From positions 1 to 61,054 of the forward strand of contig JAOTXX010000016.1 in the NCBI GenBank assembly GCA_029862185.1: DNA of 61,054 nucleotides, written 5' to 3'. The position numbers and the translations under genes were made by a program. Origin of the DNA: Myxococcales bacterium (GTDB lineage: Bacteria > Myxococcota_A > Polyangia > Polyangiales > Houyiibacteriaceae). Each line of letters starts with the position of its first letter. The stretch's first letter is position 1. The notes under the pieces are model-generated. The model was not told the DNA's origin, made no database searches, and saw only the letters and a program-made list of their open reading frames with translations. Below are positions 65 through 58,514 of the stretch, piece by piece.

Positions 65-821
65 GCCCGCCCTCTATACCCAGGGCTTCACCGAAGCTGA
101 GGAGCGCCAGCAGTTGCGCAATAACATCTGCGCCGTGCAAGGTGCCGCAGGAATCATCCTCAAAAAAGCGGGCTTTCAGATGTTGGTGCGCGGCGCAGGG
201 CATGTTGTGAATCACGATGTTTGTTTTCTCGACAAAGAGCACGCTGTAGACCTCAGCTCGGAGATTGCGCCAGATTTTCAGCGCATGGTGCTGCGAGGCG
301 GCGGCAGTTACCTTTGGTGCCCGATTGGTAATCACAAAATCACCGCTCCGCAGCTCCTCAACGTCTTGCCGCTCGGCAAGCGAAAGAACGCAAAGAACGC
401 AGACACGCTGCTGCGCAAATTCAATTGCCGACCAGTGCTCAAGAGGCTTTACGTTTTCGAGTCTGGCGACAATTTCGAGGAGCAGTCTGCCGACGCGGAC
501 GCAAGCACGGCACTTGAGGCGGTGCGCCCCTCGCCAAAAACGAGGTTACGCGGTGTGCTCATCGAAGCCCCGTCGCTGAGGCAGGCTCGAGAGATTCTGG
601 AAGCCAAACGCGACGAGCTTCCCTGGAAAGAGTTGCACGGCAAGCTGCGCTCCGATCAAACGCTCAATGCAAATTGGCACGATGCGCCGCTGACGTTGCA
701 AGAAAAGACCACGCTCAGGACTCAGGAGATGGAAGCGATGCACGATGCACGGCGGGCGAGAGCCAAGCTGGTCAGCCAACTTCGCAGAGAAGCCAACTCG
801 CTGTCGATCGAGCCCTTGTAG
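57..821 (+). CDS. Unrecognised hypothetical protein next to an integrase
   Basis: A 254-residue soluble protein beginning MSKPALYTQGF. I do not recognise a domain. A TTG at 45 is in frame, but the ATG at 57 fits better because it overlaps the upstream stop. There is no signal peptide or membrane segment. The C-terminal third (from about residue 170) is rich in charged residues and looks helical (TLRTQEMEAMHDARRARAK). The gene sits 10 bp before the integrase on the same strand, so it probably belongs to the same mobile element. Possible roles include an accessory recombination or DNA-binding factor, but nothing in the sequence proves this. Confidence 0.65.
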   Translation: MSKPALYTQGFTEAEERQQLRNNICAVQGAAGIILKKAGFQMLVRGAGHVVNHDVCFLDKEHAVDLSSEIAPDFQRMVLRGGGSYLWCPIGNHKITAPQLLNVLPLGKRKNAKNADTLLRKFNCRPVLKRLYVFESGDNFEEQSADADASTALEAVRPSPKTRLRGVLIEAPSLRQAREILEAKRDELPWKELHGKLRSDQTLNANWHDAPLTLQEKTTLRTQEMEAMHDARRARAKLVSQLRREANSLSIEPL

Positions 822-831
822 GAATTGGAGA

Positions 832-1974
832 ATGGATATGGAGATTTTAGAAGAACGGAAACGAGAGCTTCGGCGGATGCGAGCAGGACTCAGCACATCC
901 GCAATCAGGGAGCACATTTTCGGCTCCGAGCCGGAGCTTTACAAGACGACGCCGGAATACCAGCACAGCATCGAGCACGGGCTGTGCTTCGACACGCGGA
1001 TCGGCTTCGAGCGGCAAGGGGGCGGCATGTTGACGCACAGCACCACCGCCGAGCAACGCGAGCAGGAGCGCGAAGCAACACGCCGATGCGGCCCGTCTTT
1101 GAATGAGCTGTTCGATCGGGACTTCGCGGTTTGGAAAAAGACCGTGGGCAAAGCGACTGCGGAGAACCGTCTGCGGGATTGGAATAACCACGTCCGATCG
1201 ACGGAGGTTGCCAACAAAGCAGGCGGATTGATCACCGAAAACGAAGCACGGGACTTGATCGTTTCGTTGCCGTTGCAGAAAGCCGGGAAGCGCAAGATTC
1301 GTCAGATCTGCGAAACGCTTGCCAGGCGCCTCACCAAGACGGGATTCCGCACCGATAACCCGTTCGATGATGTGAAGATTCCGAAGGACCGCATCACCGC
1401 GCAGCGGATCAAGTTCTACAGCTTAGCCGAGTTTTCAAGGCTGGTAGCGGCGGCAACGGGACAGCTCAAAGATGTGCTTCGCGTGGGCGGCAACACCGGA
1501 CTGCGACCGGACGAGATTCGTTGGCTTCGATGGGAAGATCTAGATCTCGAGGCGAAGCGCATGACGGTATGCCGGACGAGCAACGGAGCCGTCAAAGGTG
1601 GCGAGCCTAAGACGGTAGATCTGCTGCCCGGTGCCATCGAAGCATTCCAGGCAATCGATCGGCATCCCTCCGGCTATGTCTTTCCAAGCAAGCTCGGCAA
1701 GCCGCGCAACCGCCAAGCTGAGTTTGGATTGCGGCGGCTCTGTGAATCACTCGGCATCGAATACAAAGGGCTGTACGGCTTGAGGCATTTCTTCGCCGTG
1801 ATGCTGGCAACCGGCGGTTTTGGAGTGCAGTTCACTCGCAAGGAAGCAGCGACCCTGATGCGGCATGAAGGCATGGCGAGCATTGATGTTTACTACGCGC
1901 TGACGGACGATCACATCGCGGAAAAGGCGAAGGACTGCCGTCCTTTGGAGTTGCTCCAAGACACACTAGTTTGA
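832..1974 (+). CDS. Tyrosine recombinase / phage-type integrase
   Basis: A site-specific recombinase of the lambda-integrase family, which cuts and rejoins DNA through a tyrosine nucleophile. The C-terminal catalytic domain is visible: the first Arg in TGLRPDEIRWLRW (about residue 224), the second box as GLYGLRHFFA (about residue 317; the usual first His of HxLRH is replaced by Tyr), then LMRHEGMASIDVYYALTDD carrying the His and the Tyr nucleophile near residue 353. The N-terminal half looks like a SAM-like core-binding domain (about 90-200). The start at 832 was chosen over an upstream in-frame ATG at 745 that overlaps the previous gene; AGGA lies 8 bp upstream. At 380 aa it is of normal length. 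It is the last gene of a probable integrated element. Confidence 0.9.
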   Translation: MDMEILEERKRELRRMRAGLSTSAIREHIFGSEPELYKTTPEYQHSIEHGLCFDTRIGFERQGGGMLTHSTTAEQREQEREATRRCGPSLNELFDRDFAVWKKTVGKATAENRLRDWNNHVRSTEVANKAGGLITENEARDLIVSLPLQKAGKRKIRQICETLARRLTKTGFRTDNPFDDVKIPKDRITAQRIKFYSLAEFSRLVAAATGQLKDVLRVGGNTGLRPDEIRWLRWEDLDLEAKRMTVCRTSNGAVKGGEPKTVDLLPGAIEAFQAIDRHPSGYVFPSKLGKPRNRQAEFGLRRLCESLGIEYKGLYGLRHFFAVMLATGGFGVQFTRKEAATLMRHEGMASIDVYYALTDDHIAEKAKDCRPLELLQDTLV

Positions 1975-1990
1975 CACCCCCGCGGGGACC
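1971..1990. other. Candidate element/chromosome junction with palindrome
   Basis: Immediately after the integrase there is a TTGACA (1971-1976) that contains the integrase stop, followed by the perfect 10-bp palindrome CCCCGCGGGG (1978-1987). The next gene, the AAA ATPase, is of chromosomal housekeeping type and starts at 2006. An integrase at the end of an element often lies beside its attachment site, so this is a plausible att core or a promoter for the ATPase. No second copy is visible in the window and no tRNA gene lies here, so this stays speculative. Confidence 0.25.
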
Positions 1991-2005
1991 TCCGATCCTG
2001 AATTC

Positions 2006-3511
2006 GTGCTTCGTACGGTGCCACCATCTACTGACCAGCTGCGCGAGCTGGAGATTCTGATTCGCGCCCATCATCCTCTGTTGCTCGTCGAGACGGTTGA
2101 AGAGGAGCGGGTCCACGTGCTCCTCGAGCATTCCGCCGAGCACATTGGCTTGCCGCTTTTTTCTTGGACCCAGGTCGATGGCCTCCGCCGTGAGATGCCC
2201 GAGCCGGGGCACACGCCCGAGAGTGGGCCACCACAAAAAGCGCTCTCTTTCATCGAGCGCTCGAACCTCGAGGCGATTTTTCATCTCAAGGGGCTCGGCC
2301 CCTACCTTCACGAGCCCGCGGTCATCGCTCAGATCAAGAACATTCACAAGAAGTACTTCGGACACCGCGGGGCCATCATCGTATCGGGCCATGGCATCGA
2401 CATGCCCCCGGCGATCGAGCACCTCTTCACGCCGCTCAGCCTGCATGCGCCCTCGTCCGAGGCGTACCATTCGTTCGTCCAAGCGGTGCTCCGCGACCTG
2501 GCCAAGCGGCTTCACGTGAAGGTCGAGCTTTCGAGCATGGATGTGTCGAAGCTGCTTGCCGCGTTGCACGGCCTCACGTTCTTCGAGGTTCAGAAGATCA
2601 TCACCCAGGCGGTCATCGAGGACGGCGTCCTCGGGCGTGAGGACATCGTCAAGGTGCTCGAGGCCAAACGACAGATCATCGAACGCTCAGGGGTGCTCGA
2701 ATACTTCCCGCACGAACACGAGATGGGTGACGTCGCCGGTCTGACTGAGCTCAAGGACTGGCTTCGCAAGCGCCAGGCAGCTTTCGAAGACCCGAAGCGA
2801 GCCAAGGACTACGGGCTGTCCCCTCCCAAGGGGCTCATGCTGATCGGCGTTCAGGGTTGCGGAAAAAGCCTCTGTGCCAAGGCGGTCGCCGCGGAGTGGA
2901 AGCTTCCCTTGATCCGACTCGACCCATCGAACCTGTACAACCGCTACGTGGGCGAGAGCGAAAAGAATCTGAAACGCGCGATCAAGCTCGCCGAGGCGAT
3001 GGCGCCGGTCGTTCTTTGGATCGACGAAATTGAAAAAGCGCTTTCGCAGCAAGATGCAGAGGGCGGACCGGCGCAGCGAATCTTCGGGACCTTCCTCGCC
3101 TGGCTTCAGGACAAGAAGGAGAACGTGTTCGTCATCGCGACGGCGAATGACATCTCGAAGCTTCCCCCGGAGCTGATGCGCAAGGGCCGCTTCGACGAGA
3201 TCTTCTTCGTCGACCTTCCCGGCGCCGAAGCGCGAAAGCGGATCTTGCAAATCCACCTCAAGCGACGAAAACGCGATCCGACGAAGTTCGACATCCGACA
3301 GCTCGTGGAGCTGACCGACGGGTTCAGCGGCGCGGAGATCGAGCAGGCGGTCGTCTCCGCCCTCTATACGGCATTCTCTCACCAGGAAGACCTCACGACC
3401 GAGTTCATCGCCGACGAGATCGAGATGACGAAGCCACTCTCGGTGACGATGGCCGAGCGCATCGAAGCCCTTCGGGATTGGGCCAAAGATCGCGCAGTTT
3501 TCGCCGGATGA
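2006..3511 (+). CDS. AAA-family ATPase, Ycf46-like
   Basis: A 501-residue ATPase of the classic AAA group resembling cyanobacterial/plastid Ycf46. The N-terminal part (to about 240) has the [16 protein letters not shown] opening typical of this family. The AAA module follows: Walker [14 protein letters not shown] (about 280), Walker [11 protein letters not shown] (about 335), and the arginine-finger region [15 protein letters not shown]-terminal lid helical domain ends the protein. The GTG at 2006 is the only start upstream of the conserved region that keeps full length. Substrates of the family are unknown. It stands alone after the integrase and may have been separated from its old upstream neighbour by the insertion. 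Confidence 0.85.
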
Positions 3512-3583
3512 CGAACGTCGATTAGCGCCCGGCAGCCGCCCGATCTAAGCTCGAAGCCTTATCTTGATCTTGAGAGGTTTGCG

Positions 3584-5305
3584 ATGGTCACACGATTGAA
3601 TTTGGGCGGTGCCGTGCTTGCGGCATTCTTGGTTGCTTGCACCAGTGCTCAAGTCGAGCAGATCTGCGTCGACAATTGCCCGAACGACCGCGGTGTCCGA
3701 GTGCAAACCAGCTTCGGCCCCGTGGAGGGTTACGAGGACGACGGTGTCCTCTCGTACCGCGGCATCCCATACGCCGCGCCACCGATCGAGGACCTTCGCT
3801 GGAAGCCACCGATCGACCCGGAGCCGTGGACCGACACGCTTCCTGCGACCGAGAAACCCAACATCTGCCCGCAGCTCGCGTTCGCAGGCCTTCCCGTCCC
3901 CGGCTTCATGCCGAGCGAGGATTGCCTGTATCTCAACGTCGACACGCCGGCACAGGGCTCGGGCATTCCCGTCATGGTCTGGATTCACGGCGGAGGGTTC
4001 ACCCTGGGTGAGGGCTTACAGACCGACGGCGGCACGGCGGGCGACCTGATCGCCCGTGAAGTGGGTGCGGTCGTGGTGAGCATGAACTACCGCCTCGGCC
4101 AGCTTGGGTTCCTCGCGCACGCCGCGCTCACCGCCGAGAGTCCCGATGGCGCGTCCGGCAACTACGGCCTGATGGATCAAACCGCCGCACTCCAGTGGGT
4201 GCAGGACAACATCGATCGCTTTGGCGGCGATCCTGACAATGTCACGATCTTCGGCGAATCCGCCGGCGCGTTCAGCGTTTGCAGCCATCTCGCCTCTCCG
4301 AAGAGCACTGGGCTCCTCGACAAAGCCATCCTCCAAAGCGGTTCCTGCGAGCGGCCCTGGCCGACGCTCTCCGCGGCCGAGGCGCAGGGCGATACCTTTG
4401 CTGCAGCATTGGAGTGCGACACCGCGGAAGATGTATTGGCCTGCATGCGGGCCAAGTCGGCGGACGACGTCATCGCGGCGCTGCCACCGGCGCCGAACTT
4501 CGGCTTCAACCCCGGCATGGGCCCGACGGGAAACTGGGGCCCGGTTCTCGACGGCTCGTTCTTCACCGAGCAGCCGAGCGAATCATTCAGCTCGGGCAAC
4601 TTCAACCAGGTGCCGACGATCCTCGGTTTCACGCGCGAAGAGGCGAGGCTGTTCGTTTGGCTGGGCGAGCTTGCAGATCCGCCTCTCGACGTGACGGCAG
4701 CGAACTACGAGGAGCTGATCGCGTACTTTCTCGGAGGCAACACCGAGCTCGCAGCACGAGCGGCGGAACAATACCCGCTGTCGGACTATTCGGAGCCCGC
4801 CGTAGCCCTTGCGGCGGTCGCGACGGACACGGTTTTTCGCTGTCCGGGCAAGCTCGAAGCCGCGAAGTTGAGCGCGTTCGTTCCGACGTATCTCTATCAG
4901 TTCGAGTACCAGGACGGGCACTCGCAGCTGGAAGTCGTCTTGCCTTTCATCGATGGCAGCCTGCCGACCTACGATTTAGGCGCGTTTCACAGTGCGGATA
5001 TACCTTACGTCTTTGGCTACGATCCGTTGCTCGTGATCAACCTCGAGGACTTCTCGACCACGCTCAACACCTGGGAGGCGGACACGGCGGACCGGGCGCT
5101 TTGGAACGAGATCCTGAGCGACTTTTGGCGCTTCGCGCTTACCGATAGCCCGAGCCCGCTCGGTGGCCTTGAGTGGCCGACCTACGACGAAGCGACCGAC
5201 CAACACAAGGTCTACGACGCGACCGTTTCGGTTGGCAGCAACGCTGCTGAGAAGTGCGACTTCTGGGCCGGCGAAGACTACCTCGTCAGCGAGTTCCGAG
5301 ACTGA
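3584..5305 (+). CDS. Type-B carboxylesterase, lipoprotein
   Basis: A secreted serine hydrolase of the carboxylesterase type-B (cholinesterase-like) family, alpha/beta-hydrolase fold, hydrolysing carboxylic esters. The N-terminus has a signal sequence with a canonical lipobox LVAC (Cys at about residue 19), so it should be lipid-anchored. Family landmarks are YRGIPYAAPP near the start, the oxyanion-hole WIHGGGFTLG, the nucleophile in GESAGAF (Ser226) and the catalytic His in GAFHSADIPYVFG (His469). At 573 aa it is of full family length. It is convergent with the DUF2505 gene, 10 bp away. The natural substrate cannot be deduced. Confidence 0.92.
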   Translation: MVTRLNLGGAVLAAFLVACTSAQVEQICVDNCPNDRGVRVQTSFGPVEGYEDDGVLSYRGIPYAAPPIEDLRWKPPIDPEPWTDTLPATEKPNICPQLAFAGLPVPGFMPSEDCLYLNVDTPAQGSGIPVMVWIHGGGFTLGEGLQTDGGTAGDLIAREVGAVVVSMNYRLGQLGFLAHAALTAESPDGASGNYGLMDQTAALQWVQDNIDRFGGDPDNVTIFGESAGAFSVCSHLASPKSTGLLDKAILQSGSCERPWPTLSAAEAQGDTFAAALECDTAEDVLACMRAKSADDVIAALPPAPNFGFNPGMGPTGNWGPVLDGSFFTEQPSESFSSGNFNQVPTILGFTREEARLFVWLGELADPPLDVTAANYEELIAYFLGGNTELAARAAEQYPLSDYSEPAVALAAVATDTVFRCPGKLEAAKLSAFVPTYLYQFEYQDGHSQLEVVLPFIDGSLPTYDLGAFHSADIPYVFGYDPLLVINLEDFSTTLNTWEADTADRALWNEILSDFWRFALTDSPSPLGGLEWPTYDEATDQHKVYDATVSVGSNAAEKCDFWAGEDYLVSEFRD

Positions 5306-20114: not shown

Positions 20115-21884
20115 ATGCGGAAGATTTGCCTTCGCTGCGGTTCGAAGTTTGGGAGCCGATCAGAGTACTGCCCTCACGATGGCAGTCTGCTCGTCACCGA
20201 CGCAGACATTGCCGATCCTTTGCTCGGCAGCGTCTTGCTCGAGCAGTTTCGGATCGATGAGCAGATCGGCACCGGCGGCATGGGCACGGTCTATCGCGCC
20301 CGCCAGACCACGGTGGACCGTGACGTCGCCATCAAGGTGTTGAAAGCCGAGCTTGCGCGCGACGAACAGGCTGTCTTCCGGTTCGAGCGCGAGGCCAGGC
20401 TCGCCATCTCGCTCGACCATCCGAACCTGGTGCGCGTGTTTCTTTCCGGGCGCCTCGCAGATGGACGGCTCTACATCGTGATGGAGCTGCTCGAGGGCCG
20501 GTCGCTGGCGGAGGAGCTCGAGCAGAACGGCCTTTTGACGCTCGAGCGCGCTCTGATCCTAATCATGAAGCTCTGCGCCGGCCTCGGCGCCGTGCACGCC
20601 GCTGGCATCGTGCACAGGGACATCAAGCCAGAGAACGTGTATCTGGTGAAGCGCGGTCGCGACGATGACTTCGTCAAGCTCGTCGACTTCGGAATCGCCC
20701 GAGTTCTCGAAGCCGACGGGATCGGGCCGACGACCACGCAAAGCGGGCGCGTCTTTGGAACGGCGACCTACATCTCGCCGGAAGCGGCCACCGGTGAAGA
20801 GACCGACGAACGAAGCGACATCTACTCGCTGGGCGTCTTGGCCTATCAGCTGCTCACCGGCGCGCTTCCGTTTGAGGGCAAGACCGCAGGGGCGGTCCTG
20901 ATGCAGCACGTGCATCAGGAGCCGCCCCTCCTTCAGACCAAAGGACGGGGCGCCGGGGTCCCCGACGAGGTCGCGCGCGTGGTCATGCGTTCGTTGAGCA
21001 AGGACCCCGATGCGCGACAGCAAACGCTAGCGGAGTTCCTCGATTCGCTTGCGGAGGCCGCAGGCAACGCGGGCTTGTTGCACGACGCGCGGGCGCTGCT
21101 CATCGGCACGATTTGGGGCGAGGAGCTCGCGGCGCCGGGCTCGTATCTCGGAGAGCTTCTCGGTTCGAGTGCACCACCGAGCTCGCCATCTCCTCTAGCG
21201 GCCACCCTGCCGGTCGCAGTGACCCGCGATCCCGACGATGACGCGTTTCTGTCGTCGGCGCCGAGGCCGTTTGGGACCACTTCGCATGAGCTGCCAACGG
21301 TGACCCGGCCCAAACGGAGGAAATACGTCTGGCTTTGGGCCTCATTGGGGGTCTTGGCGTTCCTATTTGGGATTATCGTAGCGGGTACTTGGTGGTCGCA
21401 GCGTGCTCCCCGTGCTGTCGCGGACGAGCAGACGCCCGAGCCGATCGCGGCGCCGCCGGGCCCGGTCGACGAGGACGCCACGGTTGCCGACGTCGGCACC
21501 GACACGGTCCTCGGCGAGGCCCCGGCGGTCGAGGAACCCGTTGCGGAAGAGCCGCCGGTCGAAGCGGTGGAGCTGGAGCAAGCTCCGCCGCCGCCGATAC
21601 CCGAGCCGATCGAGCCCAAGCCAAAGAAGAAGCGGACGAAGCCGAAGAAGAAGAAGACAGCGCCAGTGAGAGTGACAGCGCCAGTGCCAGCGCCAGCGCC
21701 CGTGCCCGTGACAGCGCCAGCGCCAGTGCCAGCGCCCGTGCCAGCGCCCGCGCCCGAGCCCGAGCCTGATGACGGCATCGACTGGACCGTCCCGGACTTC
21801 CCCGATGAGCCGGCGCCGCCTACCGGGACGCCCGATGCTCCGGCGCGCAATCCTGTCGTTATCGACGAACCGCCGTCGCAGTAG
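20115..21884 (+). CDS. Transmembrane Ser/Thr protein kinase 1 with N-terminal zinc ribbon
   Basis: A 589-residue Hanks-type kinase. Residues 5-22 form a zinc ribbon (CLRCGS...YCPHDG). The kinase domain follows (about 40-310) with the Gly loop GTGGMGTVY, the catalytic loop HRDIKPEN, the DFG triad and a normal SPE-type activation region. A linker leads to one membrane helix (about 404-426, LWASLGVLAFLFGIIVAG). The outside part is mostly acidic and then Pro/Ala-Val repeats (nt 21660-21770), with no recognised ligand domain. The ATG at 20115 fits the zinc ribbon; an upstream start at 20058 has no such support. It is divergent from the 18989-19984 gene. Confidence 0.93.
   Translation: MRKICLRCGSKFGSRSEYCPHDGSLLVTDADIADPLLGSVLLEQFRIDEQIGTGGMGTVYRARQTTVDRDVAIKVLKAELARDEQAVFRFEREARLAISLDHPNLVRVFLSGRLADGRLYIVMELLEGRSLAEELEQNGLLTLERALILIMKLCAGLGAVHAAGIVHRDIKPENVYLVKRGRDDDFVKLVDFGIARVLEADGIGPTTTQSGRVFGTATYISPEAATGEETDERSDIYSLGVLAYQLLTGALPFEGKTAGAVLMQHVHQEPPLLQTKGRGAGVPDEVARVVMRSLSKDPDARQQTLAEFLDSLAEAAGNAGLLHDARALLIGTIWGEELAAPGSYLGELLGSSAPPSSPSPLAATLPVAVTRDPDDDAFLSSAPRPFGTTSHELPTVTRPKRRKYVWLWASLGVLAFLFGIIVAGTWWSQRAPRAVADEQTPEPIAAPPGPVDEDATVADVGTDTVLGEAPAVEEPVAEEPPVEAVELEQAPPPPIPEPIEPKPKKKRTKPKKKKTAPVRVTAPVPAPAPVPVTAPAPVPAPVPAPAPEPEPDDGIDWTVPDFPDEPAPPTGTPDAPARNPVVIDEPPSQ
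21660..21771 (+). repeat. Low-complexity hexamer-like repeat (GCCAGC/GCCCGTGCC units)
   Basis: Inside the kinase 1 gene, imperfect 6-bp units of the form GCCAGC, GCCAGT or GCCCGT repeat for about 110 bp and encode alternating Pro-Ala-Pro-Val residues. Such tracts are prone to length change by slippage. They lie in the predicted extracytoplasmic tail, where a Pro/Ala spacer could cross the periplasm or cell wall. Confidence 0.7.
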
Positions 21885-51328: not shown

Positions 51329-51927
51329 AACGAGGAGCCTGGCTCATCTAAGAACTTGGCTTCCTCGTCGCTACTCGCCCGCCCGAGGATCTCGTTTCGA
51401 TGCGGATAACGTCCAAATCGCTCGATGATCGCCCGGTGCCGCACCGCGAAGTCCAAGTAGTACTTCGCATCCCCTTGAAGAGGCTCCGGCGCGGAGGCGA
51501 GCAGCTTCTCGAAGAGCTCCATGCAGAGTTTGTGATCGTCCATCGATTCACTGTGCTCTAGCGGCAGATAGAAAAAGACGCGTTCATCAAAGGACAGCTC
51601 GGCATCGAAGCCGGCATCGAGGCCTTCACGACAAACCTCACGCGCGAGCTCATCGGCTGCGAACATCTTCGGCGTCCCTCGGAACATGTTTCTCGAAAAC
51701 TGGTCCAGGACGATGATGTACGCCAAGGCGCCGCGCGCGCTGCTTCTCCAAGCTTCCCTCTCTCCGGCTACGATGGCTTCATAGTCGTCCATGAAATGGT
51801 GTTGGACCGCCTCGTCAAACGCGTCGGACTTCGTCCACCAGCGCTTTCGGTGCTCCGGAGTCGAGCACCCGTGCGCGTTGAGCTCGCCAAACCAGAAATC
51901 CAGTATGTCTTCGATTGGATCAGTCAA
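51325..51927 (-). CDS. DUF924 family protein
   Basis: A 200-residue helical protein of the DUF924 family. Marks are EDILDFWFGE at the start, VLDQFSRNMFRGTPKMFAAD and YLPLEHSESMDDH (C-terminal half). The family fold resembles TPR-like helices; its function is unknown. It overlaps the pabB 3' end by 8 bp on the same strand, and the permease by 4 bp on the other. Confidence 0.93.
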   Translation of the reverse strand: MTDPIEDILDFWFGELNAHGCSTPEHRKRWWTKSDAFDEAVQHHFMDDYEAIVAGEREAWRSSARGALAYIIVLDQFSRNMFRGTPKMFAADELAREVCREGLDAGFDAELSFDERVFFYLPLEHSESMDDHKLCMELFEKLLASAPEPLQGDAKYYLDFAVRHRAIIERFGRYPHRNEILGRASSDEEAKFLDEPGSSF

Positions 51928-53242
51928 CTTTGCAACCCCCTTGCAGCGAGTCTACAGCATCGAGAAAGACCCGCGCCTTGAGCTCGGTTTCGGCGACCTC
52001 CCGGTCAGGATCGCTCGCTTCGACGATGCCGCCACCGGCCCAGTAATAGACCCGGCCGCCCGAAACCGTCGCAGTTCGAATCGCCACGGCAAGCGAGAGC
52101 CCGCCATCGCGATCGATGAAACCCAAGGCGCCACAGTAGGTACCGCGCGGGTGTTTCTCGAGCATCTCGATGATTTCGAGGGCACGAACCTTTGGTGCGC
52201 CCGTGACGCTTCCAGGAGGAAAGGTCGCTTCCAAAATGGCTTTGAGTGAAACCTCGGGTCGCGTGATGCAGCTCACGGTGCTCACGAGGTGATAAAGGCC
52301 GGTAAACGGTTCCACGAGGAGGGGCTCGTCGACCGTCACGGTTCCCGTCTCTGCGACTCGGCCGAGGTCGTTCCGCATGAGATCGACGATCATCGAATGT
52401 TCGGCCTGCTCCTTCGGGTCTGCGCGCAGGCGTTGCGATGCGCCGTCGTGAGTGGTTTCGCGCCGGATCGTCCCTTTGATCGGACGCGTGACGAGCGTTC
52501 TGCTCCCAGCGTCCCACTGAATGAATCGTTCCATCGTGCAGGCGAGCACCGCATGGTCACCGCCATCGAAAAACATCCCGAGCGGCACGCGACTGGCGAC
52601 TCGCATGGCTTGCCAAAGCTCGAGCGCATCGCCTGCAAACGTCGCGGACCAACGTCTGGCGACGTTGACCTCGTAGACCTCACCCATTCCGATGTAGTCG
52701 AGCGCCTTGCCGATCGATTTGCGGTGCTCCACTGCGTCGTCCACTTCGATCGCACCGACCACGGGCGGCGAGGTTTCGGTGTCGTCTAGTTCGTCCAAGC
52801 GAGCGGAAAACAGAGCGCACGCCTCGCGATCGTCGCCGACGATCCAGGTTTCACCCTCTTCATGGTCGAGGACCAGGAGCGCGGGAAAGCGTCGAAAGAG
52901 CATGATGGGATCCGCTCCACGATCGAAACGCGGCTCTCCACGCACCGGCGACGACCAGTATGCGTCGTACGCAATGTAGCCGATCCAGGCCGGCACTTCG
53001 CTGGGCCTGGGACCGTCGGGGATCGATCCTTCGCTCCGTTGGCCCACCCTGCCAAGCGCGGCGAATGGCGCCTTGGCTCCGAACTCCACCCGGATCTCTT
53101 CGGCCGGCCAGGCGGCAAGAAAGGAAAACCGTCCATCGCGCGCCTCGCTTCGATTCGAATCGAGCCAAGCGAACCCTGGCTCTGCGCGCAGGCGCCGCGC
53201 TACCGCGAGCTCGTCGATTGAAGCAAGGGGTTCGGCCCACAC
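51920..53242 (-). CDS. pabB: Aminodeoxychorismate synthase component I (PabB)
   Basis: A 440-residue chorismate-utilising enzyme. The signature TRPIKGTIRR carries the Lys of PabB (TrpE has PIAGT), so folate precursor synthesis is favoured over anthranilate. Other marks are VYEVNVARRW, MIVDLMRNDLGRV and FPPGSVTGAPK with the C-terminal YCGALGFID. No pabA or pabC is adjacent. It overlaps the DUF924 gene by 8 bp. Confidence 0.9.
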   Translation of the reverse strand: MWAEPLASIDELAVARRLRAEPGFAWLDSNRSEARDGRFSFLAAWPAEEIRVEFGAKAPFAALGRVGQRSEGSIPDGPRPSEVPAWIGYIAYDAYWSSPVRGEPRFDRGADPIMLFRRFPALLVLDHEEGETWIVGDDREACALFSARLDELDDTETSPPVVGAIEVDDAVEHRKSIGKALDYIGMGEVYEVNVARRWSATFAGDALELWQAMRVASRVPLGMFFDGGDHAVLACTMERFIQWDAGSRTLVTRPIKGTIRRETTHDGASQRLRADPKEQAEHSMIVDLMRNDLGRVAETGTVTVDEPLLVEPFTGLYHLVSTVSCITRPEVSLKAILEATFPPGSVTGAPKVRALEIIEMLEKHPRGTYCGALGFIDRDGGLSLAVAIRTATVSGGRVYYWAGGGIVEASDPDREVAETELKARVFLDAVDSLQGGCKVD

Positions 53243-53290
53243 TGCGCTGATCTACTTGCTCGCTGCGAACCGGTAAAGCAACCTCTCGCC

Positions 53291-54640
53291 GTGATCCGCC
53301 GAATCGTCTTACTTGGACTGCTCTCGGTGGCGGCCTTTTCCTGCAAGGAGTCCGTGGCGACCTTCGTCTTCGAGGCTCGCATCGTCGACGGCCAGAACGG
53401 CAATCCAGCGGCCGGGACCGATGCCACGACGCTTCGAATCGGCATTCAAGAGGGCGAGCTTCCCGCGCAAGAGTATGAGTATCCAATCACAGACGGCGAC
53501 TTCGACGCGCTGCTGGAGTTTGGCGCGTTCACTCGCCCTACACGGATCCGGGTCGAAATAGTGGGGGAGACCACCGAGCTCTTGAGCGCGTCACCGGCAT
53601 TCGTTCCCACTAGCAGCGCCGGCCTGCTTCGCGTCGTCACCGCCGCGCCCTCTTCCTGCGAGCGGGTCACGTTCGACCTATTGGAAGCACCCCGCGCATT
53701 CTTCGCAATGGTGCGGTCCGGTACGTTCGCCTTGATTGCGGGTGGCACGGGCCCATCCCATGAGCAGATCGAATTCTTCGATTTGCTGGAATGGGAGTCG
53801 CGCCTCTTTGCCGAAGACCTCGCGGTGTCCGATCTCGGCGAAACGCGAGCCGCATCGATCGACGAGGCTCAGATCCTCGTCCTTCCAAGCAATGTGACGC
53901 CGTTCATCTTCAACATGCTCGACCCCAGCCGTCGAATCGTGCCGGTGTTTCTTCACAATGGCGCAGGCGCGAGGTCCGCGCTCGTCTCCGTTCCCGGCGT
54001 CGGAGCGATGGTGATCGGCGGCGAGCTAGGCGGAGAAGCTCAATCCGAGGTATCGCTGGTCGCGCCCGGCGGCGAGGTGACGTCTCTTCAGCTCAGCAAG
54101 CCGCGGTCCGGACCCGCAGCCACCGCACTGGGCGCCGACGTCCTGGTCGTAGGCGGCGATCCCGAGGGCGATGCCGAGCTCCTCCTCGATGGCAGTACGA
54201 CGGGGCAGCCTGTCGCAGGCGTCATGGACCGCGTCCGTGAAGGCGGCCTTCTGGTCGGTGACGGCAAAAGCCGTGCCCTCCTCCTCGGCGGCACCGATGC
54301 CGAAGATGCCGTGCGACAGGACAGCCTGCGCTTTGATGCCTGCCCGAGCGCCTGCGCTTCGGGCGCCGGACCTCAGTGGACGACGGCGCGCCTGGGAGTC
54401 CTACAGCCCGCAGATAGCACGCTGCTCGTTGGCGGTGAAAGCTCGTCGATGGTGGAGGAAGTCCGATGGGACGACGGGAACCTCGAGATTGAACCTCTCT
54501 TGCAAATGGAGTTCCCGCGGGCCGGCGCGGGGGGTCTCGTCTTGGAAAGTGGCGCCTTCATCGTAGCGGGGGGCGACGATGGTGTGAGCATCCGGGACGA
54601 TTTCGAGTTCTGCGTCCCGGCCGCGCTTCAACCGCTATAG
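53291..54640 (+). CDS. Beta-propeller-like secreted lipoprotein
   Basis: A 449-residue protein starting at GTG 53291, with leader RRIVLLGLLSVAAFSC (Cys18, -1 Ser and -2 Phe, an imperfect lipobox). After an Ig-like region (about 25-110) there are at least six repeats of the form ALIAGG, AMVIGG, VLVVGG, ALLLGG, TLLVGG and FIVAGG, a kelch/propeller-like spacing of 30-60 residues. It lies 15 bp before the kinase. No close family is recognised. Confidence 0.7.
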   Translation: MIRRIVLLGLLSVAAFSCKESVATFVFEARIVDGQNGNPAAGTDATTLRIGIQEGELPAQEYEYPITDGDFDALLEFGAFTRPTRIRVEIVGETTELLSASPAFVPTSSAGLLRVVTAAPSSCERVTFDLLEAPRAFFAMVRSGTFALIAGGTGPSHEQIEFFDLLEWESRLFAEDLAVSDLGETRAASIDEAQILVLPSNVTPFIFNMLDPSRRIVPVFLHNGAGARSALVSVPGVGAMVIGGELGGEAQSEVSLVAPGGEVTSLQLSKPRSGPAATALGADVLVVGGDPEGDAELLLDGSTTGQPVAGVMDRVREGGLLVGDGKSRALLLGGTDAEDAVRQDSLRFDACPSACASGAGPQWTTARLGVLQPADSTLLVGGESSSMVEEVRWDDGNLEIEPLLQMEFPRAGAGGLVLESGAFIVAGGDDGVSIRDDFEFCVPAALQPL

Positions 54641-54655
54641 AAGGATGAGGTAGCG

Positions 54656-56473
54656 GTGCCCGAACCTGTTACTCTTGGAATCCCCGGGCAGATGTTACGC
54701 AAGCTTGAGAAGTACGAGGTCCTCGACGAGATCGGCCACGGTGGAATGGCTACGGTCTACCGGGCACGGGACAGCTCGCTGGATCGATTCGTCGCCCTCA
54801 AGGTGCTCCATCCGCATTTACAGCGCACCAGCGAAGCGCGGGCCCGATTCACTCGCGAAGCCAAGAGCGTCGCGAAGCTCCGACATCCGCACATCCTCGA
54901 GATCTACGACTACAGCGGCGAGGCCTCGGACGAGACGTACATCGCCGCGGAGTTGCTCACGGGCCCCACGCTGAAGGATTTCGTCCTGAAGCAAAGGGAA
55001 CTGCCAGCAGAAATCGCAGCCTGTGTCGCCCTTCAGCTCGCAGACGCGCTCGGCGCTGCGCATGCCAAGGGCATCATTCACCGCGACGTGAAGCCCGAGA
55101 ACGTGCTCATTCACGAAGATCGCTGCGTGAAGCTCACCGACTTTGGGATCGCGTACATGGTTGACGCGCACACGTTCACCGTCACCGGTCAGATCCTCGG
55201 TTCCCCGGGTCACATGGCGCCGGAGCAAGTGGAGGGCGGGACCTGCGATGTACGCAGCGACGTCTTTTCGCTCGGGACGGTCCTGTATTTCTGTGCAACC
55301 GGTCGACTACCGTTCATCGGTCGGAACCCCCACCATCTGTTGAAGTTGTTGCTCGAGGGCGAGTACCCCGACCCGCTTCGCCTCCGTCCATCGATTGGTG
55401 CAGAGCTCGCCCAGATCATGAACAAGGCGCTCTCCCGAGCGCCTGGCGAACGTTATCAAACCGCCGGTGAGATGGCCGATCGTCTGCGAGCCTTTCTGAC
55501 CGAGATGGCCATCGGCGATCCCGATGAAACGCTGGCTCGCTACCTAGCGGAACCGAACGAGGTCGCCGAGGAGCTGGAGCAGCACGTAGTTCAAAGGCTG
55601 CTCGTGCTCGGGGCCGCAGCCGCAAAAGCCGGGCAAGTGTCGAAGGCGCAGGCAGCGCTGAGCCGTGTTCTGGCGCTCGATGACGGAAATGATCGCGCCC
55701 TCAAACTGCTGGGGACCCTGGGGCGCCGCCGCCGGGCGAACCTGATCATCGCACTGGTCGCCACTGCTCTCGTACTTTCGCTTGCGGGGGTTGGGTACCT
55801 GAGCTGGCGACGAGCCGAAGGCGCGCGTGTGGAGACGGAGACCACTCCGACAGCGGAAGAGGGCGCCGGCGACACACCAGGCCAGCCAGCCCAGGCTATG
55901 GACGCTGATCCATCGACCCGCTCCGAAAACGAGCAAGCCATCGTGGATGAGGAGAGCCAACCTGAGGAAAGCGACAAGGAGGCGACTCCAAACGGCCGAC
56001 GTTGGGTCGTCTTCAAACCAATGCCCCCGAATGTGTCGATCAGCGTTAACGGCAGCCGGCTCAAGCCGTACGGCCCCGATTTCCAGCGGGTCCGTCTCAA
56101 GGCCGGCAATCACACGTTTCGCTTCGTTGGCGCCGAAGGCTGTTGTGAAGAGCGGGTCGTCCGCAGGCGGATTCCGGCGGGGGCGCGCGACTTCGAGCTT
56201 TCGGTCAAACTCCGCTACAAGCCCGCGAGGCTCTACCTCAAGGGTCCAGCGCCAGCGGATGCGACCGTCCGAATCACACTCCCCGGGAATCGCAAGGTCA
56301 CAGGACGGATCCGCGAGATCCTTCAGATCCCGATGAGGACGCTTCAGTCCTCCGCTCAGGTGCAGATCCGCGCGCCGGGCTATCGAACCTACCGGACGGT
56401 GGTGAAGCTTCGTGCCGGAGCGGATTTGACCGAGCATTCCTTCAAGCTTGAGAGGGACGGCGAAACCCCGTAG
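54656..56473 (+). CDS. Transmembrane Ser/Thr protein kinase 2 with PEGA-like tail
   Basis: A 605-residue Hanks-type kinase (GTG start 54656). The kinase domain (about 15-285) has GHGGMATVY, HRDVKPEN, DFG and a normal activation region. A helical linker (300-355) may hold TPR-like helices. One membrane helix lies at about 361-383. The outside part has an acidic stretch and then PEGA-like beta units (PMPPNVSISVNGSRLKP, KPARLYLKGPAPADATVRI) to the end. The next gene starts 12 bp later. Confidence 0.92.
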   Translation: MPEPVTLGIPGQMLRKLEKYEVLDEIGHGGMATVYRARDSSLDRFVALKVLHPHLQRTSEARARFTREAKSVAKLRHPHILEIYDYSGEASDETYIAAELLTGPTLKDFVLKQRELPAEIAACVALQLADALGAAHAKGIIHRDVKPENVLIHEDRCVKLTDFGIAYMVDAHTFTVTGQILGSPGHMAPEQVEGGTCDVRSDVFSLGTVLYFCATGRLPFIGRNPHHLLKLLLEGEYPDPLRLRPSIGAELAQIMNKALSRAPGERYQTAGEMADRLRAFLTEMAIGDPDETLARYLAEPNEVAEELEQHVVQRLLVLGAAAAKAGQVSKAQAALSRVLALDDGNDRALKLLGTLGRRRRANLIIALVATALVLSLAGVGYLSWRRAEGARVETETTPTAEEGAGDTPGQPAQAMDADPSTRSENEQAIVDEESQPEESDKEATPNGRRWVVFKPMPPNVSISVNGSRLKPYGPDFQRVRLKAGNHTFRFVGAEGCCEERVVRRRIPAGARDFELSVKLRYKPARLYLKGPAPADATVRITLPGNRKVTGRIREILQIPMRTLQSSAQVQIRAPGYRTYRTVVKLRAGADLTEHSFKLERDGETP

Positions 56474-56485
56474 AACCCGCCTAAG

Positions 56486-57400
56486 GTGATCCGGCGGCCC
56501 GCGCTCTCAGGTTTGATTTTCCTGTTGATGGGAGCGTTCGCGCTGCCCGTCGCCGCCGACGAGCTTTCGGACTTCGAGTCGGCCCGTCGCAGCTACGACA
56601 AGCAGAGCTACACCAAGGCGGCCAGGGGCCTCGAGTCTCTGGTCGGCGGCGTCGTCCCCCGCGCGGCGAACCCGGTCGTTCGCTTGGAAGCCCGAAAATA
56701 CCTCGGCGCAACGTACCTCTTCCTCGGAAAGAAGGACGCCGCCCGGGAGCAATTCCGGCTGCTGCTCGAGGAGGATCCGGATTATGACATCGACCCCGTC
56801 GCTTTCCCCGAGGCGGTCGTGCAGACCTTCCAAGAGGTGCAAAAGAAAGTCAGCGTAGAACGCGCGCGTCGCGATGCCCTGGAGCTCGCCCGCAAACAGC
56901 GGGAGCGTTCCGAAGAGGTCGAGGACCTGATCCGCCAGCAGCAACGCATCGAGGCGCTCGAGAAGCTCGCCTCCGAGCAGACCATCGAAAAGGTCAACTC
57001 CCGATGGATTGCGGCCATCCCGTTCGGCGCCGGCCAGTTTCAGAACGAGAACCGCAAGCTCGGGATCATGTTTGCCACCACCGAAAGCGCGTTTCTCGCG
57101 GCCTCCATTGCGACGTTCATCGGCCACAACTCGCTCCGCGACGAGAATCCGGGACCCAACGAGATCGACCGGGCGCGGCGGGTGGAGAAGGCTCTTCGCA
57201 TCGGCAACTGGGTGAGCGTCGGCGCGCTCCTGAGCTTTGCAATCGCCGGCGTCGTCGAAGCGGAAGTTCGTTTCAGGCCGGTGATCCGCAGCAGCCGGCC
57301 CCGTGAATTGCCTGACGAGCTCAGAAGCCCCCAAAGCCGCGGGCCCCAGCTTCGACTGGAGATGGGGCTGACTGGTGGCAAGTTGCGGATCGATTTCTGA
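56486..57400 (+). CDS. TPR/DUF5683-like membrane protein
   Basis: A 304-residue protein starting at GTG 56486. A signal peptide ends near VAADE. TPR-like helices follow (YDKQSYTKAARGLESL and YLGATYLFLGKKDAAREQF), then a coiled region rich in charged residues (120-165), and a DUF5683-like C-terminal half with AAIPFGAGQFQNENRKLG and two membrane helices (190-208, 240-257). It follows the PEGA-type kinase closely and is the last gene before the str operon. Confidence 0.78.
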   Translation: MIRRPALSGLIFLLMGAFALPVAADELSDFESARRSYDKQSYTKAARGLESLVGGVVPRAANPVVRLEARKYLGATYLFLGKKDAAREQFRLLLEEDPDYDIDPVAFPEAVVQTFQEVQKKVSVERARRDALELARKQRERSEEVEDLIRQQQRIEALEKLASEQTIEKVNSRWIAAIPFGAGQFQNENRKLGIMFATTESAFLAASIATFIGHNSLRDENPGPNEIDRARRVEKALRIGNWVSVGALLSFAIAGVVEAEVRFRPVIRSSRPRELPDELRSPQSRGPQLRLEMGLTGGKLRIDF

Positions 57401-57415
57401 ATTTTCGCAAATCGG

Positions 57416-57466
57416 GGCCGATGTGGAGACCCGGATCATTCTTGCTAATCGCACCCTGCATCGGCC
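57416..57466. other. Inverted repeat upstream of the str operon
   Basis: GGCCGATG (57416-57423) and CATCGGCC (57459-57466) are perfect 8-bp arms around a 35-bp spacer. A run of A, not T, follows on the plus strand at 57483-57488, so it is not a plus-strand intrinsic terminator. It lies between the TPR gene and the rpsL promoter. Confidence 0.4.
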
Positions 57467-57538
57467 TCCGCTGTGTCGGCTGAAAAAATAGTCATTTCAA
57501 AGGTTTAGGGCTCTATCCCAATTCGCGGAACACTTCGC

Positions 57539-57566
57539 TTGACAGCAGGGCTTTCGCGCCTATTCT
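57539..57566 (+). promoter_or_regulatory. Probable sigma-70 promoter of the str operon
   Basis: TTGACA (57539-57544) is followed after 16 bp by TATTCT (57561-57566), 66 bp before the rpsL ATG. This is the best sigma-70-like pair I saw in the window and its position suits a strong ribosomal promoter. Confidence 0.65.
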
Positions 57567-57631
57567 TCGCTCCCTTTGACGCGCGGGGAAGTTGCGCGCG
57601 CTCGAGGAATTGCACGCTTTTTCGGATAGTT

Positions 57632-58030
57632 ATGCCCACGATCAACCAGCTCGTCCGCAAGGGACGAAAACAGATCAAATCGAAAACGGATTCGCCGGCG
57701 CTTCAGCGTTGCCCGCAGAAGCGAGGTGTGTGCGTTCGCGTCTACACGACTACTCCGAAGAAGCCGAACTCTGCGCTTCGTAAGGTCGCCCGTGTTCGTC
57801 TGTCGAACGGTATCGAGGCGACGACCTACATTCCCGGCGAGGGACACAATCTGCAGGAGCACTCCGTCGTGCTCATTCGCGGTGGCCGCGTAAAAGATCT
57901 TCCCGGCGTTCGCTATCACGTCGTGCGTGGCACACTCGATGCCACCGGGGCGGCCGGACCGTCCAACACCAACAAAGCCAATCGCGTCAACAAGCGATCC
58001 AAATACGGCGTGAAGCGCCCCAAAGCCTGA
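57632..58030 (+). CDS. rpsL: 30S ribosomal protein S12
   Basis: A 132-residue S12. The decoding loop [13 protein letters not shown] (Lys43 and Lys44) and [28 protein letters not shown] are unchanged. Compared with E. coli S12 there are about eight extra residues near the C-terminus ([14 protein letters not shown] before KRSKYG). No strong Shine-Dalgarno precedes the ATG at 57632. First gene of the str operon. Confidence 0.97.
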
Positions 58031-58043
58031 GCAAATCTGAGTC

Positions 58044-58514
58044 ATGAGTCGTCGAGTAAGCGCACCCAAAAGGCAAATCATCCCGGACGCCAAGTATGGC
58101 GACCAGCTCGTGGCGAAGTTCGTCAACTCACTGATGCTCGCAGGCAAACGCTCCACCGCCGAGAAGTGCTTGTATGGCGCCTTCGACATCATCGAAGAGC
58201 GCTACAAAGACGAGCCGCTCGATGTGTTCAAGAAAGCACTCGATGCGGTGAAGCCGCGCGTCGAGGTGAAGAGCCGTCGTGTTGGTGGCGCGACCTATCA
58301 GGTTCCCGTCGAGGTTCGCTCCGACCGCCGCAATGCGCTCGCAATGCGTTGGCTGGTTCAGTATTCGAGGGCGCGCGGCGAGAAGTCCATGGAAGAACGT
58401 CTCGCGGCAGAGCTCATGGAAGCCTCGCAGGGGCGCGGAAACGCCGTAAAAAAGCGGGAAGACACACACAAGATGGCTGACGCGAACAAGGCGTTTGCCC
58501 ATTATCGTTGGTAG
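58044..58514 (+). CDS. rpsG: 30S ribosomal protein S7
   Basis: A 156-residue S7, full length. It starts 13 bp after the rpsL stop with [12 protein letters not shown], and has the conserved [20 protein letters not shown] region and C-terminal [20 protein letters not shown]. It starts assembly of the 30S head and binds 16S rRNA; in E. coli it also represses the str operon. Confidence 0.97.

Follow-up and report, generated by a model that had tools for sequence, protein, structure and literature searches.

A conserved gene pair for a receptor kinase and a TPR-repeat membrane protein in Myxococcota

Gene content of the locus

The window, a stretch of 61,054 nucleotides, comes from the metagenome-derived, 4.29 Mb genome of a Myxococcales bacterium whose named close relatives are uncultured Polyangiaceae and other Myxococcota. 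Upstream of the str operon, at the positions originally predicted, three plus-strand open reading frames encode a lipoprotein (LIPO, 449 aa), a protein kinase (KIN, 605 aa) and a TPR-repeat protein (TPR, 304 aa). These are real genes and no chance frames because homologs with conserved sequence are present in dozens of genomes. The TPR gene is followed by rpsL, rpsG and fusA, and pabB lies divergently on the 5' side of LIPO. An Rfam scan of positions 52500-58500 yielded no match. The features of the locus are the following:

51920..53242, minus strand: pabB-like chorismate-binding enzyme (PF00425), a divergent neighbor that stays with LIPO, not with the kinase, where synteny breaks
53291..54640, plus strand: LIPO, lipoprotein (Cys18) with an N-terminal beta domain and a predicted kelch-type propeller; accessory and lineage-restricted
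54667..54675, plus strand: extended -10-like site between LIPO and KIN, TGTTACTCT (TGATATCCT in congeners), weak in the window
54656..56473, plus strand: KIN, Hanks-type Ser/Thr kinase with a single TM segment and a PEGA-like ectodomain; the better-supported start is ATG 54692
54713..55459, plus strand: KIN kinase domain, residues 20-268, with Lys, HRD, DFG and activation-loop T175/T177 intact
55736..55792, plus strand: predicted TM segment of KIN, residues 361-379, from ortholog hydropathy, placed via L061/L062
56141..56146, plus strand: vicinal cysteine pair C496-C497 of KIN, the sole ectodomain cysteines in most orthologs
56486..57400, plus strand: TPR, with a signal peptide, TPR domain (26-96), 54-residue helix, PFGxGQFxN turn, TM hairpin and C-terminal strands
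57539..57566, plus strand: candidate str-operon promoter, TTGACA-N16-TATTCT, kept in position and sequence in relatives
57632..58030, plus strand: rpsL (S12), first gene of the str operon; a lineage-specific neighbor outside the module

The limits of the frames leave 15 bp between LIPO and KIN and 12 bp between KIN and TPR, as in the original prediction, but the first of these values probably needs to be revised. In three congeners (L065, L066, and L104), there are stop codons between GTG 54656 and ATG 54692, and the DNA directly 5' of this ATG, CCTGATATCCT, nevertheless stays conserved. For this reason, ATG 54692 is the better candidate for the start of KIN, and the gap between LIPO and KIN is therefore probably 51 bp rather than 15 bp. 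The conserved DNA itself looks like an extended -10 element.

Predicted properties of the three proteins

Judging from its sequence, KIN is a Hanks-type Ser/Thr receptor kinase with an intact cytosolic domain, one TM segment and a PEGA-like part that is secreted. The complete kinase domain matches PF00069 (E-value 1.5e-45), and K49, H142-R143-D144, D162-F163-G164, P189-E190 and the activation-loop T175/T177 are invariant among 31 orthologs. In nearly all orthologs, a single hydrophobic segment follows the kinase domain and precedes approximately 160-320 residues; the position of this segment in the window protein was transferred from orthologs L061/L062, which are 86-90% identical. The best match among solved structures is PknB (3.1e-49). 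The match to the PASTA-kinase model (NCBIfam NF033483) reaches only 309 of the required 450 bits and covers residues 18-393, and a Pfam search of the window protein detected no PASTA domain. The kinase of the original prediction is confirmed, and the PEGA-like label of its tail applies only at the level of the family: the PEGA model (PF08308) scores 12.4 bits on the window protein against the Pfam gathering score of 20.8, and matches 5 of the 31 orthologs with E-values at or below 0.01 (1.8e-4 at best). In a profile search of the window genome, KIN scores 850 bits, whereas the runner-up among about 40 kinases reaches 293 bits, within the kinase domain only; by this measure, KIN forms a separate orthologous group. 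Exactly one match to this group (E-value at or below 1e-70) was found in 49 of the 54 relatives searched. Matches of KIN to the defense kinase PD-T4-6 in PADLOC fall on the kinase domain, as they do with any Hanks kinase, and this assignment was discarded.

Among 98 sequences, the most common arrangement of cysteines in the KIN ectodomain is a CC pair alone (54), followed by a CC pair with two additional cysteines (13), no cysteines (13) and a spaced pair (12); altogether, the number of cysteines is even in 92 sequences and CC is present in 67. Given that the cysteines are gained and lost in pairs, they probably form a disulfide bond, vicinal in most orthologs.

The AlphaFold model of TPR (pLDDT 90.9) begins with a signal peptide and continues with two and a half TPR repeats, a 54-residue helix, the PFGxGQFxN turn and two TM helices before the C-terminal strands. 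The length of the helix is exactly 54 residues in approximately 39 of the 57 orthologs. The motif of the turn served as the search pattern for alignment A5, where its invariance is partly by construction, so that the independent alignment A2 was used instead. The charges of the loops give no clear confirmation of the topology of the TM hairpin. Structural matches of the TPR domain include the periplasmic proteins BamD, PilF and LpoP among many other TPR proteins, and Pfam and NCBIfam searches yielded only sub-threshold matches to TPR, TssQ and BatC. The T6SS lipoprotein TssQ was rejected as an assignment (NF038027, 24.9 versus 65 bits, within the TPR part only), and no lipobox was found in the window protein. 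The prediction of a TPR-containing envelope protein holds, but its proposed likeness to DUF5683 does not: this domain is absent from the 25 most frequent Pfam families across the 57 orthologs (E-value at or below 0.1) and shows no match in the window protein at an E-value of 1 or below.

According to its structural model (pLDDT 90.1), LIPO is a kelch-propeller lipoprotein, in agreement with the propeller-like lipoprotein originally proposed. The lipobox cysteine, Cys18, is invariant among 23 homologs, as are four other cysteines (C123, C351, C355, and C441). In the model, an N-terminal beta domain (approximately 28-116) precedes a propeller that matches kelch/galactose-oxidase propellers (Foldseek 2.1e-11; VIA-align Z 24.4, rmsd 3.4 over 314 residues). 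Pfam kelch models (Kelch_1, 1.1e-7, and Kelch_4) match at most 10 of the 23 homologs and do not match the window protein itself. Assignment to the galactose oxidases (AA5) was rejected. The Tyr/His copper ligands are not conserved, and the only invariant columns among the 23 homologs are C, P, F, G and R; because no Tyr or His is invariant, copper-oxidase chemistry is unsupported.

Conservation of the gene pair and its changing neighborhoods

As judged by sequence comparison, the conserved unit is a pair of genes, KIN and TPR, that is kept across most of the Myxococcota sampled. In 72 of the 80 named myxobacterial loci, the gene directly 5' of TPR encodes a kinase and has the same orientation. 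The same holds for 12 of 20 more distant loci, which represent other families of the class as well as other classes (485-629 bits); among the remaining distant loci, several stop at a contig edge and some truly lack the kinase. Exceptions to the pairing include TPR homologs without an adjacent kinase (L088, L222, L226, L237, and L238), KIN genes apart from any detected TPR neighbor (G035 and G046), and one genome with TPR inverted relative to KIN (G028). The conservation beyond a single strain that was anticipated thus applies to this pair, but not to LIPO or to the adjacency of rpsL, which are both lineage-restricted. In one lineage that lacks the str neighborhood, the pair is followed by two genes encoding proteins of about 855 and 199 aa, the only recurrent downstream pair seen; Pfam searches with both yielded no match.

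LIPO is an accessory neighbor of the pair within one lineage. It is present in 34 of 57 relatives, all within part of one order. In most genomes of the str-adjacent clade, it lies directly 5' of KIN on the same strand, with gaps mostly between -31 and 176 bp, and propellers commonly serve as platforms for binding ligands or proteins. These features would fit the originally proposed three-gene sensory operon, in which the propeller binds an envelope ligand and relays it to the ectodomain of KIN, TPR serving as a scaffold. However, most of the families that keep KIN and TPR lack LIPO, the distance between LIPO and KIN grows to 1.5-2.4 kb in G025 and G023, and in three genomes (G031, G032, and G048) LIPO is found away from KIN, either with pabB or alone.

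The distribution of promoter-like signals also bears on this arrangement. A TTGACA-N16-TANNNT promoter precedes rpsL in 16 of 18 str-linked loci (z 13.1 versus shuffled sequences), and a weaker excess is detectable before KIN, after LIPO (z 4.9), although these z values overstate independence because the loci are related. The signal before KIN is clear in L070 and L072 (TTGACC/G-N17-GATAGT) and weak in the window. In the same comparison of str-linked loci with shuffles, there is no promoter signal before TPR (z -0.1) and no consensus promoter before LIPO (z -0.1); the latter is compatible with a three-gene operon, but the signal between LIPO and KIN is not what such an operon would predict. 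Taken together with the distribution of LIPO, this makes a three-gene unit unlikely. Separate promoters, named originally as an observation that would refute the operon, are predicted from the sequence before KIN and rpsL. The simplest reading of these signals is that LIPO, KIN-TPR and rpsL-rpsG-fusA would be transcribed separately, the latter two from promoters of their own.

An alternative is that KIN and TPR are merely co-inherited neighbors, with TPR performing an unrelated task in the envelope, such as outer-membrane or secretion assembly. The TPR homologs without an adjacent kinase and the resemblance of the TPR domain to the assembly lipoproteins BamD and PilF, and weakly to TssQ, are consistent with this possibility. 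Distance correlation did not set the ectodomain and TPR apart from general divergence (partial r 0.53 versus 0.65 for the ectodomain and FusA) and, because the FusA control correlated as strongly, was not used as evidence of co-evolution. Nevertheless, the same-strand adjacency of the two genes persists across classes of the phylum, at distances where the other gene order around them is lost, so that mere co-inheritance seems quite improbable.

The adjacency of rpsL is retained synteny of a single lineage and does not belong to the module itself. In 30 loci from six family codes, rpsL lies 3' of TPR in the same orientation; it is missing from this position in 12 loci that offer 5 kb or more of sequence, and in one more (G028) TPR is inverted. 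In the tree of TPR-linked kinases, all str-adjacent pairs belong to one clade of 30 (SH-aLRT 97) within Polyangiales, with losses inside this clade and no gain outside it. EF-G can be a substrate of bacterial Hanks kinases (e.g., PrkC), and a search for terminator-like sites between TPR and rpsL found none, so that read-through is possible. Retention of the adjacency through approximately six families of one clade might also be invoked for the notion that KIN is co-regulated with str products or phosphorylates them (e.g., EF-G). However, this notion is highly improbable and was set aside as the main reading: families f5, f7, and f12 and all the other classes sampled keep the pair without str, the str operon has a strong, conserved promoter of its own, and the adjacency itself is lost in G027 and G052 and disrupted by a 1.9 kb insert in G007. 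The KIN-TPR pair accordingly gives no evidence for the link to translation that was raised originally.

A proposed receptor-kinase module and related systems

With modest confidence, we favor KIN and TPR as the functional unit, a membrane receptor-kinase module in which TPR would control KIN via its ectodomain, the two proteins presumably forming a complex. TPR would be anchored in the inner membrane, with the helical stalk projecting the TPR domain into the periplasm, where it could bind an envelope component, the KIN ectodomain or both. Acting on KIN through the ectodomain or the TM segment, TPR might thereby control dimerization and autophosphorylation of the activation loop, and the activated kinase would then phosphorylate cytosolic targets. 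The cysteine pair, probably as a (vicinal) disulfide, may shape a loop that binds a ligand or partner. Most likely, the state of the envelope would be sensed by the PEGA-like ectodomain of KIN, with TPR as its stalked periplasmic partner. A more ambitious version, namely a phylum-wide core kinase in an obligate complex with a fixed-stalk TPR protein, which senses the envelope (e.g., spacing or redox state) via the vicinal disulfide and represents an architecture not described before, appears doubtful.

Several known systems share parts of this organization. The PASTA kinases PknB, StkP and PrkC resemble KIN in the cytosolic Hanks domain, single TM segment, extracytoplasmic sensor and activation-loop Thr, but the sensor of KIN is PEGA-like with a cysteine pair, without PASTA, and a dedicated TPR gene follows. 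Mycobacterial PknD is a Hanks receptor kinase with a beta-propeller on the outside; in the window, the propeller is a separate kelch-type lipoprotein that is only loosely linked to KIN. In the T6SS threonine phosphorylation pathway of Pseudomonas aeruginosa, the envelope proteins TagQRST act upstream of the Hanks kinase PpkA (PMC4348357). This is a works-like comparison only, given that KIN has a TPR protein and a kelch lipoprotein as neighbors in place of TagQ, TagR, TagS and TagT.

The synteny of the myxobacterial kinome has been reported as poor, with pkn4-pfk as the sole syntenic kinase region among seven myxobacteria (PMC2887360), and the phylum-wide KIN-TPR pair is therefore a modest surprise. 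In both cases, myxobacteria have retained a kinase gene next to the gene of a partner; the partner of Pkn4, however, is a cytosolic substrate, phosphofructokinase, whereas KIN is paired with a TPR membrane protein that is secreted. A search of the open-licence literature found no publication that connects PEGA domains with Myxococcus.

The number of Hanks kinases in myxobacteria ranges from dozens to hundreds, and few of their partners are known. The gene order around them has been described as poorly conserved (PMC2887360). Against this background, a near-universal, single-copy KIN with a fixed partner gene marks one kinase as core, and the pair provides a two-gene handle for finding the signal and the targets of this kinase.

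Cysteines of the kinase ectodomain

In most orthologs of KIN, the transmembrane Ser/Thr kinase, the ectodomain contains exactly two cysteines, which are adjacent (56141-56146 in the window). In Labilithrix-type relatives, this pair is spaced (C-x4/5-C), and elsewhere neither cysteine is present. Besides KIN, the window encodes a second Hanks kinase (20238-21083), one of the 43 PF00069 matches in this genome.

Rearrangement and apparent loss around KIN and TPR

In one genome (G028), the gene for TPR, the periplasmic TPR protein, is in reverse orientation between KIN and rpsL (L072:4001-4957/L126). In one congener (G007), the interval between TPR and rpsL contains about 1.9 kb of additional sequence (L064:11374-13275/L118). 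In L104 (G014) and L105 (G013), both single-contig and from the same genus, KIN either ends after approximately residue 174 or is absent directly after LIPO, the propeller lipoprotein, and TPR is missing; this gap is either a scaffolding artefact or a true rearrangement.

Systems of a second lineage

Directly after the KIN-TPR (or kinase-TPR) pair, a second lineage carries genes for a membrane-anchored protein of about 855 aa and a protein of about 199 aa:

L143:5450-8674, both genes after the pair
L160:11243-14453, both genes after the pair
L223:9456-12666, both genes after the pair

The same arrangement is found at L149, L152, L162, L167, and L169. These two proteins, which have no match in Pfam, are possibly a lineage-specific counterpart of LIPO. 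Upstream of the TPR homolog, L143 encodes a giant kinase of 1416 aa (166-4413); because its match to the KIN profile reaches just 160 bits, the partner may have been swapped at this locus.
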